Shown piece by piece: positions 56,699-62,793 of a DNA stretch of 64,000 nucleotides (its first letter is position 1; every line of letters begins with the position of its first letter). The translations under genes were made by a program, and so were the position numbers. The notes beneath the pieces are model-generated. The model did not search any database and was not told the origin of the DNA. It was given only the letters and a program-made list of their open reading frames with translations. Origin of the DNA: Olleya namhaensis (GTDB lineage Bacteria > Bacteroidota > Bacteroidia > Flavobacteriales > Flavobacteriaceae); the NCBI RefSeq assembly GCF_900114005.1, contig NZ_FORM01000001.1, positions 310,001-374,000 on the forward strand, given 5' to 3'.

Positions 56699-57340
56699 AT
56701 GGGTAAAAAGAAGAAAAAATATTACACCGTTTGGCAAGGACATCATAAAGGCGTTTTTGAATCTTGGAATGATTGCAAAGCGCAAATCAAAGATTATCCT
56801 GGAGCGCAATACAAATCCTTTGCTACGTTTGACGCTGCCAAAGCCGCCTTAAAAGGAAACTACTTTGACTACATTGGAAAAAAGGAAGGCTTTAAAAGCG
56901 AGTTAAGCCATGAACAGCTTAAAAAAATTGGGCGTCCAAATTATAATTCTATTTCTGTAGATGCAGCCTCTTCTGGTAATCCCGGGATAATGGAATATCG
57001 TGGCGTAGAAACAAAATCTAAAAAACAACTATTTAAACAAGGTCCTTTTGCTGAAGGCACCAATAATATTGGCGAATTTTTAGCGTTAGTGCATGGTTTA
57101 AGTTTTTTAAAAAAACATAATAGCGACTTACTTATATATACAGACTCTAAAACCGCTATGAGTTGGGTGCGCAAAAAAACGTGTAATAGCAAACTAGAAC
57201 GTAACGCAAAAAACAAACCGGTGTACGATTTAGTAGATCGCGCAGTTAATTGGCTAAAAGAAAACGATTATAAAACCACGATAGTTAAATGGGAAACCAA
57301 AGCTTGGGGTGAAATCCCTGCAGATTTTGGTCGAAAATAA
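56699..57340 (+). CDS. Viroplasmin-type ribonuclease H
   Basis: This 213-residue protein has a viroplasmin RNA/DNA-hybrid binding domain (residues about 6-50, KYYTVWQGHHKGVFESWNDCK) followed by RNase H with catalytic Asp88, Glu126, Asp149 and Asp209. It degrades RNA in RNA-DNA hybrids. Its last 45 bp (57296-57340), encoding TKAWGEIPADFGRK with Asp209, are repeated at 61744-61788 after the island, differing at one base. The gene is intact. The start follows a short palindrome at 56674-56691. Confidence 0.95.
   Translation: MGKKKKKYYTVWQGHHKGVFESWNDCKAQIKDYPGAQYKSFATFDAAKAALKGNYFDYIGKKEGFKSELSHEQLKKIGRPNYNSISVDAASSGNPGIMEYRGVETKSKKQLFKQGPFAEGTNNIGEFLALVHGLSFLKKHNSDLLIYTDSKTAMSWVRKKTCNSKLERNAKNKPVYDLVDRAVNWLKENDYKTTIVKWETKAWGEIPADFGRK
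57296..57340 (+). repeat. Left copy of island-flanking direct repeat (attL-like)
   Basis: This 45-bp segment is the RNase H gene 3' end, from the Thr codon to the TAA. It is 44/45 identical to 61744-61788. The single difference (T here, C in the right copy) is at the third position of the catalytic Asp209 codon. Confidence 0.9.
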
Positions 57341-57346
57341 AAGATG

Positions 57347-57712
57347 TTAACTTTCTAATTGTCCAATTTTTGCTTTAAGCTCATTTATTAAAATACTTTG
57401 CTCTTGTAACCTGATCTCAAACTGTTCAATTAACTTTTCAGATAGCTGGTTAATTGTACCGCTATTGTATAATGCACCATTATTAGTATTGATGGTATCA
57501 ACTTTTATGTGATCTTGTTTTGTAATATCTTCTGGTTTAATCTCGAAAAACTGGCTAATAGCCAATAAATGTGTTGCCCAAGAGTTGCTATTACCACTTT
57601 CAATTCTTGCATATGCAGATTGAGATATTTTTAAAACCTCTGCTAAATCCTCCTGCGTCTTACCTTTGCCCAATCTTAGACTTCTTATTCTTTCACCAAT
57701 AACTGTATTCAT
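57347..57712 (-). CDS. XRE-family regulator with C-terminal coiled coil
   Basis: This 121-residue protein has a helix-turn-helix at about residues 8-60 (RIRSLRLGKGKTQEDLAEVLKISQSAYARIESGNS) and a heptad-rich tail (LSEKLIEQFEIRLQEQSILINELKAKIGQLES, 89-120) that probably dimerises. It is divergent from the secreted peptide and outer-membrane genes of the island and begins 6 bp from the RNase H stop. It has its own -7 element (57731-57738) beside a 15-bp palindrome. It is likely the repressor of the island genes and itself, which is inferred from the arrangement. Confidence 0.9.
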   Translation of the reverse strand: MNTVIGERIRSLRLGKGKTQEDLAEVLKISQSAYARIESGNSNSWATHLLAISQFFEIKPEDITKQDHIKVDTINTNNGALYNSGTINQLSEKLIEQFEIRLQEQSILINELKAKIGQLES

Positions 57713-57730
57713 TAAATATTAGTTTTTACA

Positions 57731-57738
57731 CAAATGTA
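57731..57738 (-). promoter_or_regulatory. -7 element of the XRE regulator promoter
   Basis: It reads TACATTTG on the minus strand (TAnnTTTG), 18 bp before the regulator start. The palindrome at 57755-57769 covers the -33 position. Confidence 0.6.
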
Positions 57739-57754
57739 TTAAAATAATAGTTCT

Positions 57755-57769
57755 ACCCTAAAAAAGGGT
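57755..57769. promoter_or_regulatory. Candidate XRE operator palindrome
   Basis: ACCCT-AAAAA-AGGGT is a 15-bp inverted repeat in the divergent region, overlapping the expected -33 of the XRE promoter and about 48 bp before the -33 box of the peptide promoter. The size and spacing suit an XRE dimer. Confidence 0.5.
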
Positions 57770-57816
57770 TAAATTATTCTATTTTCGGTTTTGAAAGATT
57801 AAAATCATTTAATAGA

Positions 57817-57846
57817 TTTGTCAGAGATGTATTACAAATAACTTTG
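57817..57846 (+). promoter_or_regulatory. Promoter of the secreted peptide / outer-membrane gene set
   Basis: TTTG (57817-57820), 18 bp spacer, TAACTTTG (57839-57846): a full match to the Bacteroidota -33/-7 promoter form. It ends 35 bp before the first possible start of the peptide ORF. Confidence 0.75.
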
Positions 57847-57881
57847 CGCAAGGTTTAAATTACTAATTTTAAAAACTAAAT

Positions 57882-58178
57882 ATTATAAAAAAAACGTTAA
57901 TTATTTTAGCATTAACTTTATGCGGTACAAATTTTGCCAAGAACTCAGTTGAAATAGCAAAAGAATTAGATATAACTTCTAAATTTAACATAGAAGCTAC
58001 TTACAATTCTAAAGATGACTCATGTACTAGAACTTGTTGGGCAACTGCAACAAACAGCGAAACAGGAGAGACTTATTCATTTTCAGGAATGTCTACTGCG
58101 GGAGACTGCTTTACAGCAGCAGGTAACTGCATAGCCAAACTAAGAAATAGAGTACAATCTGTTATATCTGCTAATTAA
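57882..58178 (+). CDS. Small secreted Cys-containing peptide without a standard start codon
   Basis: An open frame follows the strong promoter and ends in TAA 58176-58178. Read from ATT (57882) or ATA (57885) it gives about 97 residues: a signal peptide (KKTLIILALTLCGTNFA, then KN), then a hydrophilic mature chain with Cys at about 47, 51, 75 and 82 (CTRTCW ... GDCFTAAGNC) and a basic end (AKLRNRVQSV). No ATG, GTG or TTG lies between the upstream in-frame stop (57870-57872) and the signal peptide. The codon in the usual place is ATA, so either an ATG mutated, or ATT/ATA is used. The coding pattern and intact signal peptide argue that it is or was a real gene. No family is recognised. Confidence 0.6.
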   Translation: MIKKTLIILALTLCGTNFAKNSVEIAKELDITSKFNIEATYNSKDDSCTRTCWATATNSETGETYSFSGMSTAGDCFTAAGNCIAKLRNRVQSVISAN

Positions 58179-58189
58179 CCTCAATACAA

Positions 58190-58223
58190 AACTTTAGGTT
58201 TGCTTAAAAACAAACCTAAAGTT
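58190..58223 (+). other. Strong 13-bp hairpin between peptide and GLPGLI genes
   Basis: AACTTTAGGTTTG (58190-58202) and CAAACCTAAAGTT (58211-58223) are perfect inverted repeats with an 8-base loop. It starts 12 bp after the peptide stop and ends 21 bp before the GLPGLI start. It lacks a T-run, so it may act as a partial attenuator or RNA-stabilising end giving more peptide than downstream mRNA. Confidence 0.7.
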
Positions 58224-58244
58224 AAATTAATTAATTACTTAATT

Positions 58245-59072
58245 ATGTTAAAAAATATACTGTTTTCATTTTTACTAATCCAATCTTTATTTAGCTATGC
58301 TCAAAAAGATTCTACACGAATCTTTGAAATAGATTTTATTAGAGTTCTGACGCCTCAAAATTCAACAAAAACAATTACTTCAAATTATAAACTAAAAATT
58401 TTCACTGAACATAACATTTCTGTTTTCGCAAACAACAATGCAACTAATTTTTCAAACGATTTAATAAACGATGATGATGATGACGCTATTTTTTACTTCG
58501 ACCCAAAAGGAAAAAACATAAGTTTAGTTTATAAAAATTATTATAAAAATAAGCTTTTTTCAAAGGGAACTATCGCATTTAAAGATTTTACAATAAAAGA
58601 CTCTCTAACAATTTTTAACTGGAGCATAACCAAAGAAACTAAAAAAATTCTGGGCTTCAATTGTCAATTAGCAGAAACAACCTTTAGAGGAAGAAATTAT
58701 AGAGCTTGGTTTAGCTCCGAATTACCAATTGGAGGACCATGGAAATATGACGGCTTACCAGGAATGATTTTACAGATAGAAACACAAGAGCCTTTTATTA
58801 GCTTTAAAGCATCACAAATCAAAAGTCACAAAATAAAATTACACAACACAAAAAACCCTTTTGAAAACGATAAATTTGTGACCTGGCAACAATTTAAAGA
58901 TTTATATAAAAAAAAGGCAATAGCGCTTAGTAAATATACTACTGAATCTGACTTCAAAACTAGCATCATTTCACCGCGTATGGGTATAGAACGTTACATT
59001 GAAGAAAACGACAAAGACTACACAGCTGATAAAGATTTTGAAAAACTGCGCGAGTCTCAAAATGAAAATTAA
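58245..59072 (+). CDS. GLPGLI-family exported protein
   Basis: This protein has 275 residues from the ATG at 58245; a TTG at 58200 would precede it by 15 codons inside the hairpin and gives no signal peptide, so it is rejected. There is a signal peptide (MLKNILFSFLLIQSLFSYAQ), then a beta-rich domain with GGPWKYDGLPGMILQIE, the motif that names the GLPGLI family, here GLPGMI. The function is unknown. Members are often encoded next to TonB-receptor-like proteins, as here. The downstream gene starts 11 bp before its stop. Confidence 0.88.
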   Translation: MLKNILFSFLLIQSLFSYAQKDSTRIFEIDFIRVLTPQNSTKTITSNYKLKIFTEHNISVFANNNATNFSNDLINDDDDDAIFYFDPKGKNISLVYKNYYKNKLFSKGTIAFKDFTIKDSLTIFNWSITKETKKILGFNCQLAETTFRGRNYRAWFSSELPIGGPWKYDGLPGMILQIETQEPFISFKASQIKSHKIKLHNTKNPFENDKFVTWQQFKDLYKKKAIALSKYTTESDFKTSIISPRMGIERYIEENDKDYTADKDFEKLRESQNEN

Positions 59073-61737
59073 CTTATATAATAGGTTAATAATAATTTTA
59101 TTCTTTTTTATTGTTAATAATACTTATTCCCAGATCTTAAAAGGAACTATTAAAGATAAGAACAACAACCCTTTAAGCGCAAAACTATTAGTAAAAAAAG
59201 CTTCAAAACCCAATATAATCTCTGAATTCCACCTTGTAAAAAAAGGTGATTTTTCTTACGCCTTGAAAAAGACATACTCTGAGGACCTTATTTTTGAAAT
59301 ACTCGTAATTGGCTACGTCACATACTCTGAAAAGATTACTATCAAAGATTCTAACGATGTTTTTGAACGAAGTATTTATATGATCAAAGAGGAAACTAAC
59401 AATTTAGACGAAGTATTTATAGTAGGAAAAAAAGCCCCATTTAAAATAAAACATGACACCGTACAATATAACATCAACTCTTATAAGGATGGCACAGAAA
59501 GAAAACTTCAAGACATTTTAAAAAAGCTACCAGGTATTGAGGTAAATGAAACTTCTGGTTTAATTAAATATAATGGAAAACTAATTGAAACAGTAACCCT
59601 AGAAGGAGATAATCTTTTTGGTTACAATTACACTTTAGGCACAAAAAATATTAATGTTGATATGGTCGAAGAGGTAGAAGCTATAGAAAATTATTCTAAT
59701 AACTCATTGTTAAAAGGCTTAGACCAAGACGGAAAGGTAGCATTAAACTTAAAGCTAAAGAAAAACAAAACAGACGTCTCTGGTAATTTAGAATTAGGAC
59801 TTGGCGATTTTAAAGACTCAAGTAAAATCGCAAACAACTCTTCTTTAAATTTATTAGGAATAAATAAATATTATAAATCGTTTGGTACCATTTCATTTAA
59901 TAACGTCGGTTTAAACAATTCTCCTTTTAATTTTTCTTCCCAAGCTAGCAATATGGAAATCTTACAAGAATTAGACTATTTCTCAGAAAAAATCATACCC
60001 GAAGTTTCTATTTTAAATGTATTAGGAGAAAGAAGAGCAAATATTAACAATCAACTATTTAGTAGCTACAATAATATTTTCAATTTTGACAAAAAATTAA
60101 AAGCAAAAGTCAATTTATATTATATTCAAGACAAAATACAAACTATTCAACTTTCCAAAAGCAGCTTTACTTTTAACAATGATGTATTTAATACTTTTGA
60201 CAATATAAATACATCAAAAAAACCAATACAATACAGAGGTGATTTAGAATTAAAATATTTTAATTCTAAATCATCACTTTTTCGTTATACAATAAGTGCT
60301 AGAGATGAAAACATTGAAACAGCATCATCAATTACGTCTAACCAAAACACAAGTTTCAACACTAATCTTAACTCAAAAAATACTTTTGTAAAACAACATA
60401 TAGAATACACTAAAAGATTATCAAAACAAAAAGCCTTACAGGTAGATTTGCATTTTTCTACAAATAACTTAAATCAGGAATACAACATAAATCCGTCTTT
60501 TTTAAACACAAACAGTAACACTTATGACAATCAAAACAGCAATCAGAAAAAAACTGTATTTGAGTTAAAATCAACTTTTTTAGGTATTATAAAAAATAAC
60601 AAATACAGTTTTTCTTCGGGAGTACTATTTGCTAACCAACCATTTAACTCCAACCTTATTAATCTATCGGAAGACAACTCTGTACTATACAACAACAGAA
60701 ACAATGATTTAAATTACTCAAAAAAAACAGCTTACGCAACAGGCTCTTATAACTGGAATGTAGGTAAATTGAAATTAACCCCTAATGTTTCATTACGACT
60801 AATTAATCAAAAATTAAATAATCATATTTTAAACAACCAACAAACCTCTAATATTTTAGTTTTTGAACCCTCTCTGACTCTTTTTTACAAGATTAACTCT
60901 GTTTCTTTTTTATCCAGTAATTTAGGCCTTAATAAAAACACTAATCCAATTCAATATTTATACACGGGAAACATTTTAATAAATAACAGGACACTACTTA
61001 GTAACATACCTGACATTACACTGCAAAAAAACCAATCTTATAGCCTTGCGTATAACCTGAATGATCTTTTTAATCAATCTCAAATTATGTTTGGTGTAAA
61101 TTACACAAAACAAGAAGGCAATTTTTTCTCAAATACAATTATAACTTCCAATTCAAATACAGTTAACTTTTTCTTCTTACCAGAAGCGACAGAAAGCACC
61201 AATTTTAATCTTAGTTATTCAAAATTTATTCCCGCTTTAAATACAAATATTAAACTAAACACATTTCACTCTCTTTTTAACTATAAAAACATAGTTAACA
61301 ACTCTCAATTACGAAGTAATAAAACTAATCACACTAAGAGTCAATTATTTTTAAAAACAGCTTTTTCTACACAACTAAATTTTGAAAATGAAACCACTCA
61401 CGACTACAGTAAAACATTAAGCGAACTTACATTCACGAATAGTACATTTCAAAATAATTTTAAGATAATTTACAAACCATCAAAGGAAATATATGGCACT
61501 TTAACTGCAAACTTTTTTATACCCAATTTAAAGAAAAGGTCAGATAACTTCACTTTTATAGATACAGAAATCTGGTATAAACCAAAAAACAAAGATTGGC
61601 AATTAAGCATTTCTGCTTCCAATCTAACTAACGAGAACAGTTTTTTACAAATTCAAAACAATGATGTTTCTATCAACACATTTAGTAGTGACTTATTAAG
61701 TCGTTCTCTCTTATTAAAATTTAATCACAATTTTTAA
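59062..61737 (+). CDS. Outer-membrane TonB-receptor-like protein with carboxypeptidase-regulatory-like domain
   Basis: This protein has 891 residues, with the start at ATG 59062, which overlaps the GLPGLI stop by 11 bp; an earlier in-frame start has no signal peptide. It has a signal peptide (ending NTYSQ), a CarboxypepD_reg-like domain (residues 22-105, LKGTIKDKNNNPLSAKLLVKKA), a plug-like region (LDEVFIVGKKAPFKIKHDTVQYNINSYKDGTERKLQDILKKLPGI) and a long Asn/Ser-rich barrel ending in HNF. This resembles outer-membrane proteins coupled to GLPGLI proteins in Bacteroidota. Composition is richer in Asn/Lys (AT) than its neighbours, which suggests a different origin. Confidence 0.88.
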   Translation: MKINLYNRLIIILFFFIVNNTYSQILKGTIKDKNNNPLSAKLLVKKASKPNIISEFHLVKKGDFSYALKKTYSEDLIFEILVIGYVTYSEKITIKDSNDVFERSIYMIKEETNNLDEVFIVGKKAPFKIKHDTVQYNINSYKDGTERKLQDILKKLPGIEVNETSGLIKYNGKLIETVTLEGDNLFGYNYTLGTKNINVDMVEEVEAIENYSNNSLLKGLDQDGKVALNLKLKKNKTDVSGNLELGLGDFKDSSKIANNSSLNLLGINKYYKSFGTISFNNVGLNNSPFNFSSQASNMEILQELDYFSEKIIPEVSILNVLGERRANINNQLFSSYNNIFNFDKKLKAKVNLYYIQDKIQTIQLSKSSFTFNNDVFNTFDNINTSKKPIQYRGDLELKYFNSKSSLFRYTISARDENIETASSITSNQNTSFNTNLNSKNTFVKQHIEYTKRLSKQKALQVDLHFSTNNLNQEYNINPSFLNTNSNTYDNQNSNQKKTVFELKSTFLGIIKNNKYSFSSGVLFANQPFNSNLINLSEDNSVLYNNRNNDLNYSKKTAYATGSYNWNVGKLKLTPNVSLRLINQKLNNHILNNQQTSNILVFEPSLTLFYKINSVSFLSSNLGLNKNTNPIQYLYTGNILINNRTLLSNIPDITLQKNQSYSLAYNLNDLFNQSQIMFGVNYTKQEGNFFSNTIITSNSNTVNFFFLPEATESTNFNLSYSKFIPALNTNIKLNTFHSLFNYKNIVNNSQLRSNKTNHTKSQLFLKTAFSTQLNFENETTHDYSKTLSELTFTNSTFQNNFKIIYKPSKEIYGTLTANFFIPNLKKRSDNFTFIDTEIWYKPKNKDWQLSISASNLTNENSFLQIQNNDVSINTFSSDLLSRSLLLKFNHNF

Positions 61738-61743
61738 AACCAC

Positions 61744-61788
61744 ACCAAAGCTTGGGGTGAAATCCCTGCAGACTTTGGTCGAAAATAA
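61744..61788 (+). repeat. Right copy of island-flanking direct repeat (attR-like), RNase H 3' remnant
   Basis: This 45-bp copy of the RNase H gene end encodes TKAWGEIPADFGRK followed by TAA, but is not joined to any gene. It is 44/45 identical to 57296-57340. It begins 6 bp after the stop of the outer-membrane protein gene and marks the end of the island. Confidence 0.9.
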
Positions 61789-61837
61789 TTAGCGTTTCTT
61801 TCAATAGATTCCACTTTTTTACAGAATATATTTTACG

Positions 61838-61845
61838 TAAGTTTG
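61838..61845 (+). promoter_or_regulatory. -7 element of the PfkB kinase promoter
   Basis: TAAGTTTG (TAnnTTTG) lies 21 bp before the ATG; an upstream T-rich stretch may serve as -33. Confidence 0.5.
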
Positions 61846-61866
61846 CACTAAATTTTAAAGCCATTT

Positions 61867-62793
61867 ATGAGCAAGTTAGTAATAGTAGGTACAGTAGCAT
61901 TTGACGCTATAGAAACTCCTTTTGGTAAAACCGATAAAATTCTAGGTGGAGCAGCAACATATATAGGGTTGTCTGCAGCAAACTTTAATGTAGATCAAGC
62001 AGCAGTATCTGTTGTTGGAGGAGATTTTCCTCAGGAATATTTAGATCTTTTAACAGATAGAAATGTAAATATCGAAGGTATCGAAATTGTAAAAGACGGT
62101 AAAACCTTTTTCTGGAGTGGAAAATATCATAATGATATGAATTCTCGTGATACGTTAGCTACAGAATTAAATGTATTAGAGCATTTTAATCCTGTAGTTC
62201 CTGAAAATTATCGTGATGCAGAGATCGTGATGTTAGGTAATTTACACCCTTTAGTACAACAAGGTGTTTTAGACCAAATGACTAAAAAGCCAAAATTAGC
62301 TATTTTAGACACTATGAATTTCTGGATGGACATCGCTTTAGATGATTTAATTTCAGTAATTAAAAATGTGGATGTTATTACTATTAATGATGAAGAGGCA
62401 AGACAATTAACTGGAGAATACAGTTTAGTAGTTGCTGCTAGAAAGATTCATGAAATGGGACCAAAATATGTAGTTATTAAAAAAGGAGAGCACGGTGCTT
62501 TACTTTTCCATGATGACCATATGTTTTACGCACCTGCTTTACCATTAGAAGAAGTCTTTGATCCAACAGGAGCTGGAGATACTTTTGCTGGTGGATTTGC
62601 TGGATATTTAGCAAGCACTGGAGATATTAGTTTTGAAAACATGAAAAACGCAGTAATCTACGGATCTACTTTAGCTTCTTTTTGTGTGGAGAAATTTGGA
62701 ACAGAGCGCATGGTAACCTTGAAAAAAGAGGAAGTCAATACACGTTTGCTGGAGTTTAAAAAACTGACACAGTTCGATATAGAATTAACATAA
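61867..62793 (+). CDS. PfkB-family carbohydrate/nucleoside kinase
   Basis: This 308-residue protein has LGGAATYIGLSAANF near the N-terminus and the catalytic DPTGAGDTFAGGFAGYL motif of ribokinase-like kinases. It phosphorylates a sugar or nucleoside with ATP; the substrate is not identified. Its placement before a purF-type gene is compatible with nucleoside or ribose metabolism but does not prove it. A strong terminator separates the two. Confidence 0.93.
   Translation: MSKLVIVGTVAFDAIETPFGKTDKILGGAATYIGLSAANFNVDQAAVSVVGGDFPQEYLDLLTDRNVNIEGIEIVKDGKTFFWSGKYHNDMNSRDTLATELNVLEHFNPVVPENYRDAEIVMLGNLHPLVQQGVLDQMTKKPKLAILDTMNFWMDIALDDLISVIKNVDVITINDEEARQLTGEYSLVVAARKIHEMGPKYVVIKKGEHGALLFHDDHMFYAPALPLEEVFDPTGAGDTFAGGFAGYLASTGDISFENMKNAVIYGSTLASFCVEKFGTERMVTLKKEEVNTRLLEFKKLTQFDIELT

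Follow-up and report, generated by a model that had tools for sequence, protein, structure and literature searches.

A GLPGLI module inserted at a duplicated RNase H gene end in Olleya namhaensis, and related gene-end insertions in the Flavobacteriaceae

Introduction

Integrase-driven genomic islands, phages and integrative and conjugative elements (ICEs) sit in the 3' ends of genes, an arrangement typified by e14 and icd. A layout of this general kind is found in a 64,000-nucleotide stretch of the Olleya namhaensis genome (Flavobacteriaceae; contig NZ_FORM01000001.1, positions 310,001 to 374,000), referred to here as the window. A small island carrying a GLPGLI family gene lies there between a complete viroplasmin-RNase H gene and a second copy of the end of that gene. 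O. namhaensis is genome G000 in the comparisons below, and other genomes are numbered in the same way.

Duplicated target ends are also described in a laboratory study in Escherichia coli (PMC3240628). Of 60 clones sorted there as possible illegitimate insertions, 56 gave a PCR product for a duplicated lacZ end, and the duplications measured 109-950 bp in 14 sequenced clones. The scars were ascribed to partial degradation or trimming of the DNA, recircularisation and a single crossover.

The island at the RNase H end

The direct repeat occupies positions 57296-57340 and 61744-61788 of the window, both on the forward strand. It is 45 nt long with 44 identical positions, the copies are spaced 4,448 bp apart, and both end at a TAA stop. 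The left copy is the final 45 bp of the RNase H gene (56699-57340, forward strand), which is complete and encodes 213 aa (PF01693, 66.5 bits; PF00075, 31.7 bits). The single mismatch is GAT/GAC at the codon of Asp209, presumably a catalytic residue. Among the 20 direct-repeat families shown, out of 29 found between 55000 and 64000, this is the longest and best, and a match as good is expected by chance about 6e-16 times per 9 kb. A 161-bp query spanning the RNase H end gave only two matches at E <= 0.001 in the G000 assembly (3.52 Mb, 36 contigs), namely the two repeat copies.

The RNase H gene is present in all ten genomes of the genus that were compared. In eight of them (G001-G004, G006-G009) it is followed by a PfkB gene. 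Six have 68-79 bp between the RNase H stop and PfkB; the gap is 251 bp in G004 and 739 bp in G007, where it seems to contain another gene. None of the eight showed a second RNase H end. The island occurs in the other two, G000 and G005, with the same borders. Because the right copy and the next 78 bp match the empty site, the right copy (61744-61788) is the displaced original RNase H end. The 78 bp of original intergenic DNA (61789-61866) are identical to G005 at 78 of 78 positions and to the empty site of G006 at 76 of 78, and lead into the PfkB-family kinase gene (61867-62793, forward strand, assigned from its ORF and Pfam). The island is a true insertion at the RNase H end that left the gene complete.

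An earlier sequence-only reading of this DNA had described the 45-bp duplication with its shared stop codon and the GAT/GAC difference, had listed the island genes and had noted the lack of an integrase, and on these points the searches bear it out. It had also proposed a comparison of the RNase H-PfkB junction, which gave the eight island-free genomes as well as other genomes with different cargo at the same point and a duplicated end of their own. The eight genomes exclude the case in which all relatives share the island and the duplicated end. A stray local duplication is rejected, given the empty sites and the other genomes.

The island (57341-61743, about 4.4 kb), which runs from the RNase H stop to the right copy, holds four genes. 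They encode an XRE/HTH_3 regulator of 121 aa (57347-57712, reverse strand; ORF and Pfam), a small secreted-type peptide of about 97 aa (57885-58178, forward), a GLPGLI family protein of 275 aa (58245-59072, forward) and an outer-membrane protein of about 891 aa (59062-61737, forward). The outer genes nearly reach the borders, with 6 bp between the stop codons of the regulator and RNase H and 6 bp between the end of the outer-membrane gene and the right copy. A Pfam scan of the four proteins showed no integrase or transposase domain, and there is no tRNA within the window.

In each of the five flanking genes compared (some of them partial), G005 is nearer to G006, which is empty, than to G000, with 95.3-97.4% identity against 86.6-96.1%, and therefore either the island was lost in G006 or it was acquired separately. 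The repeats of G000 and G005 differ at three sites, at each of which the two copies within either genome agree. Compared with two empty genomes, G006 and G002, G000 has a different base at every one of the three sites and G005 at one. Since the two copies are unlikely to have changed in parallel, they have exchanged sequence, or the island has re-entered, within each lineage.

Other cargo at the RNase H end

A search of 397 family genomes with the peptide pattern KAWGEIPADFG matched 282, the other 115 being invisible to this test. Two same-strand RNase H ends within 6 kb were found in five of the 282 (G000, G005, G295, G329, G358). G185 has two matches on different contigs, and G080 and G143 each have two that are far apart or on different contigs. 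A shorter pattern matched 51 of 52 genomes in the genus of G185, giving new close pairs in G451 and G419 and five genomes with a poorer second match elsewhere. It matched 11/11 genomes in the genus of G295 and 12/12 in that of G329, where only G295 and G329 are paired.

RNase H-end repeats are thus found in eight genomes: G000, G005, G329, G358, G295, G451, G419 and G185. The repeat is 45 bp in G000 and G005, 60 bp in G329, 44 bp in G358 and 54 bp in G295 and G185. In G451 it consists of 64 bp of the gene and 32 bp beyond it (96 bp), and in G419 of 252 bp and a second piece of 67 bp. All eight include the last 44 bp of the gene.

The cargo differs. GLPGLI modules are enclosed in G000, G005 and G329. 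The RNase H end of G451 carries a grasp-with-spasm cluster for a ribosomally synthesized and post-translationally modified peptide (RiPP), with TIGR04192 at 243.8 bits and TIGR04193 at 337.6 bits; in G185 a cluster of the same kind (ATP-grasp, 249.9 bits) is split over two contigs. G295 has a protein sorted by the type IX secretion system and a lipoprotein-like ORF. Named by eye, the cargo of G358 is a hydrolase and small membrane ORFs, and that of G419 a PIN-type pair, an XRE regulator and lipoprotein-like, membrane and hydrolase ORFs. No integrase was recognised by eye among the ORFs of these other islands, few of whose proteins were run against family libraries. Also by eye, a lipoprotein-like ORF 3' of the right RNase H copy in G358 (L101) resembles an ORF of the G185 and G451 RiPP clusters, possibly reflecting stacked insertions.

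The end of the fabF gene served as a control in the same 397 genomes. It was matched in 392, and none of these has a same-strand pair less than 15 kb apart on a single contig; six have two same-strand copies that lie on different contigs or 1.5 Mb apart. With this one control gene, the difference between 5/282 for RNase H and 0/392 for fabF gives a Fisher p of 0.013.

This excess, the reuse of one 3' end with several kinds of cargo and the 44 bp common to all eight repeats would be explained if an integrase acting in trans directed site-specific integration into the RNase H end. The islands would then be satellites, or decayed elements of the cis-mobilizable (CIME) type with attL and attR borders. 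Direct repeats in 74 RNase H loci point the same way, in that the RNase H end lies within seven of the ten pairs and an eighth extends the G419 repeat. The seven are, however, the finding itself or loci chosen for their island genes (G005, G329) or for a known second copy (G358, G295, G451, G419), and give no frequency estimate; they do show that within these stretches the repeats fall at the gene end rather than at other places.

Against an integrase in trans stands the lack of any integrase in the window island or, by eye, in the other RNase H islands. No integrase-bearing element using the RNase H end was found in viral contigs (exact pattern), phages or plasmids (161-bp query), a search that left out chromosomal ICEs. 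The phage and plasmid searches returned annotated RNase H genes and short chance matches. The single exact viral-contig match is by eye the phage's own RNase H gene, in a record with one integrase match of 34 bits, and a phage or plasmid source of the RNase H end is rejected on these searches. Moreover, the same module family stands beside other genes, in one case by a gene start. A large set of different integrases would be required. Of the features of an integrase-driven island or integrative mobilizable element, border direct repeats and an empty site elsewhere are present; an integrase of its own and a single specific attachment site are not. An integrase in trans is judged rather unlikely.

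Related modules and RiPP clusters beside other genes

GLPGLI genes were matched in 76 of the 397 family genomes, and 11 of the best places were examined. A scan of named genomes gave 21 GLPGLI loci, of which the best 17 were examined; the outer-membrane gene is present at all 17 and interrupted in one. Without duplicates, and with the window and G005 included, this makes 25 module loci. Seven of these are at RNase H: G000, G005, Gelidibacter japonicus, Jejuia pallidilutea (G329), Flaviramulus basaltis (G058), Confluentibacter citreus (G316) and Tamlana laminarinivorans.

Other modules adjoin other genes and carry repeats of those genes. In Cellulophaga sp. 20_2_10 the repeat is 72 bp (71/72) of the TIGR02757 gene end, and in Polaribacter sp. 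IC073 it is 221 bp (91%) of the start of ComM/YifB. In G232 a 28-bp repeat (96%) of the PyrG end surrounds three GLPGLI genes, and a second locus has a weak 59-bp repeat (78%). In G304 a 58-bp repeat (88%) lies just after PurB, which was named by eye. The intact target gene may be on either side of the module, depending on the locus. Several modules, that of Cellulophaga fucicola for example, showed no repeat.

Two Cellulophaga species (L235/L236) have similar modules in different places about one gene cluster, of NRAMP/oxoprolinase type by eye: the module lies after ComM in C. fucicola and next to the TIGR02757 gene in sp. 20_2_10. In Subsaximicrobium wynnwilliamsii (L239, 2500-6094) insertion-sequence-like ORFs break up the outer-membrane gene of the module. 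A 143-bp repeat pair (98%) at this locus, which ends inside the outer-membrane gene by these ORFs, was left out of the repeat counts for modules.

RiPP clusters show the same arrangement. The genus of G185 has 40 grasp-with-spasm ATP-grasp loci in 26 of 52 genomes at E <= 1e-20, not all of them above the family cut-off. Apart from the two RNase H loci, 4/38 have a repeat on both sides of the cluster. The repeat is 125 bp (122/125) of a bioF-like gene end in G417, 193 bp of a pxpC-like gene end in G418, both names resting on scores below the NCBIfam cut-offs, and 41 bp of the end of an extracytoplasmic function (ECF) sigma gene in G436; that of G406 is a 30-bp AT-rich intergenic match which may be due to chance. 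With the RNase H loci included, the total is 6/40, or 5/40 at a length of at least 40 bp and an identity of at least 85%, the G185 pair being on two contigs. The pxpC-like end beside the RiPP cluster of G418 (L263) is found by eye beside a GLPGLI module in L235, and is a possible second docking point.

An alternative history is a single ancient insertion of the module at RNase H, followed by vertical inheritance and frequent loss, with the repeats kept alike through gene conversion. The GLPGLI proteins of five other RNase H-site species are 51-56% identical to that of the window (G005, 94%), against 39-48% for other aligned modules. Tamlana and Confluentibacter retain, 13-26 bp beyond the outer-membrane gene, an 18-bp remnant of the RNase H end with scores that are reached by 4% and 7% of mismatched pairs in a null which itself contains RNase H matches. 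A similar remnant was seen by eye in Flaviramulus, and the Gelidibacter sequence stops too soon after the module to judge. A single insertion leaves unexplained the unrelated cargo at the same point, the modules at other genes and the empty state of G006, a close relative of G005, and the right copies of G000 and G005 are far better kept than the remnants. It is very improbable.

Rates and controls

Repeats of at least 40 bp and at least 85% identity were found at 6/25 module loci and 5/40 RiPP loci against 2/200 control windows (p = 3e-5 and 0.002), where the controls come from G000, G451 and G419 only, exclude the RNase H repeat, and G000 and G005 are not independent and may share one event. 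Away from RNase H, the same thresholds gave 3/18 module loci and 3/38 RiPP loci (p = 0.004 and 0.03 against the controls). With looser criteria a spanning repeat was found in 11/202 control windows, two of which hold the RNase H one.

Comparing G000, G451 and G419 each with itself, over 454, 240 and 160 kb respectively (854 kb; repeats of 38-600 bp, at least 85% identity, 1-15 kb apart), gave ten repeat pairs. Three are at a gene end, and all three are the RNase H end. The idea that such repeats are simply frequent in general is rejected on this result and on the lack of close pairs at the fabF end. Outside the window, a 156-bp direct repeat (94%) surrounds 5.7 kb of variable genes in G000 (C22, 296187-296342 and 301899-302054, L202/L203); it does not lie at a gene end by the test used.

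Differences between the repeat copies

The copies of the RNase H pairs differ by 17 silent and 7 non-silent changes (p = 0.003) and those of the ComM pair by 11 and 1 (p = 0.001). All pairs together give 35 and 23 (p = 0.006), an excess that ComM also drives, and the PyrG pair has 2 and 0. No silent excess is found at the pxpC-like (3, 9), bioF-like (0, 3), sigma (1, 2) and TIGR02757 (1, 1) pairs. The test is post hoc, includes mismatches at the edges and takes the neutral rates of the two copies as equal. A silent excess above that expected from the decay of a fresh duplicate suggests that at least some pairs join two working genes, one from a donor and one from the recipient.

These differences bear on illegitimate insertion with a long target duplication, produced by template switching or by a filled-in staggered break. 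A copying strand would depart at the gene end, copy the cargo and re-enter slightly upstream. Variable length, varied targets and the lack of shared ends agree with such a route, as do the near-identical bioF-like (122/125) and TIGR02757 (71/72) pairs and the bioF-like, pxpC-like and sigma pairs that lack a silent excess. In addition, the right copy is nearest to its own RNase H gene among 74 RNase H ends in seven of the eight genomes. The silent excess in the RNase H and ComM pairs, however, suggests two parental genes, and the route does not predict recurrence at one gene end. Illegitimate insertion of this form is improbable.

Proposed route of entry

Horizontal acquisition of the module and its additive insertion by recombination at short gene-end homology is the favoured reading, and about an even call. 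It is favoured because there are several target genes, variable repeat lengths (28 to about 250 bp over all loci), no shared termini, no recombinase in the window island, the silent excess and the scar seen in E. coli. Termini were compared across islands by eye; on this ground and that of the missing transposase domain in the window island, a transposon with conserved ends is rejected. The variable-length local target duplication without a recombinase that additive single-crossover insertion calls for was found.

In the proposed route the incoming DNA would be a fragment, probably circularised or otherwise self-joined, that carried the module beside a short stretch of an RNase H end. A single crossover within this stretch would insert the module. 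The upstream gene would then be complete on one side, and the displaced gene end would be left on the other. Both this circular or self-joined form and the involvement of general host recombination are inferred.

RNase H is a recurrent docking point and not the sole specific attachment site. The sequence-only reading had called the locus att-like. An insertion at the gene end with the gene kept complete is supported, but a classic att site is not, since related modules adjoin other genes with those genes' repeats; an RNase H-specific site as the whole story is rejected for the same reason. One repeat at a gene start (ComM) and one after a gene (PurB) also count against a dedicated site. The earlier reading had left three options: a decayed element, movement in trans or homologous recombination. 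The last fits best and is not proven. The frequent use of RNase H may be due to a tolerant gap between two conserved syntenic genes or to a real site-specific enzyme.

Several observations weigh against insertion by recombination at the gene end. Repeats of 45 bp, and of 28 bp at PyrG, are short for RecA. A site-specific enzyme would also account for the recurrent use of the RNase H end, and the G185 insert has a transposase-like ORF at a contig end. The agreement of the two copies within G000 and within G005 demands added later gene conversion or exchange. The pxpC-like, bioF-like, sigma and TIGR02757 pairs show no silent excess. The right copy of Jejuia (G329) is matched better by four other genomes than by its own RNase H gene, which may also fit a foreign parent. 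Finally, no repeat was found by the criteria above at 19/25 module loci and 35/40 RiPP loci; either repeats decay or other routes of entry exist.

A broader proposal is that in the Flavobacteriaceae the ends of conserved housekeeping genes are general docks for small recombinase-free peptide and RiPP cassettes, RNase H being one much used. Each cassette would carry a short target-gene tail, insert beside the resident copy, restore the gene and be able to leave again when the repeats recombine with each other. This generalisation is tentative and may well not hold.

Cargo proteins

Alignment of 12 members of the peptide family shows a signal-like N-terminus and two conserved cysteines, one invariant and one nearly so. 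The predicted structure has three strands and a helix at moderate confidence (mean pLDDT 69), and gave no match in the PDB at E <= 0.001. The window ORF, which ends at 58178, has no standard start codon and an intact copy is present in the congener G005. Judged from this start, the cargo may be inactive in O. namhaensis.

The GLPGLI protein scores 144.3 bits against TIGR01200, above the curated cut-off of 50. Its predicted fold (pLDDT 67) resembles the N-terminal domain of PNGF-II (E = 7e-8, TM score 0.45-0.49) and, more weakly, VioE, LolA and ependymin. The model suggests a LolA-like periplasmic carrier. The outer-membrane protein of the window has no Pfam match at 0.01, and its profile matched no solved chain at E <= 1; a match to CarboxypepD_reg-like in 3/15 of its relatives points to a weak N-terminal domain of this type. 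The regulator would control a small exported peptide, which the outer-membrane protein may pass out of the cell or receive. A role of the module in peptide export is a proposal.

Comparison with known systems

Movement of small biosynthetic or peptide-secretion operons without an integrase or transposase is rarely visible. The loci described here retain a scar, the second target gene end, which makes the route of entry testable as to crossover position, donor and RecA dependence. The second gene-end copy is also a simple search signature for recombinase-free gene gain, RiPP clusters included, and docking points predict where further peptide systems may be sought. The loci point to a simple, little-noticed route by which small gene sets spread within the family. 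No paper describing this arrangement was recognised among the literature matches listed, most subscription journals lying outside the coverage, and neither was the wider pattern, in which peptide and RiPP cassettes free of recombinases adjoin duplicated gene ends, recognised in those matches.

Among the cargo, the grasp-with-spasm RiPP clusters (TIGR04192/TIGR04193) of G451 and G185 are alternative occupants of the RNase H end, and the XRE regulator is common to G185 and the window. The window module differs in having no ATP-grasp or SPASM protein and in having the GLPGLI and outer-membrane proteins. Compared with PNGF-II, of about 540 aa, the 275-aa GLPGLI protein has no room for the catalytic part.

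As an insertion, the island resembles integrase-driven islands, phages, ICEs and cis-mobilizable elements in its position at a gene 3' end, in leaving the gene complete, in its border direct repeats and in the exchange of cargo at one site. It differs from such islands and mobilizable elements in the lack of an integrase, the several target genes used by related cargo, the variable repeat length and the lack, so far as found, of a parent element. The trimmed and recircularised linear DNA of the E. coli study, placed next to homology-facilitated illegitimate recombination, is alike in that foreign DNA is flanked by a variable target duplication without a dedicated recombinase. That system (PMC3240628) is a selected laboratory one with duplications of 109-950 bp, whereas the insertions described here are natural and repeated, lie mostly at gene ends, carry peptide cargo and have shortest repeats of 28-45 bp.

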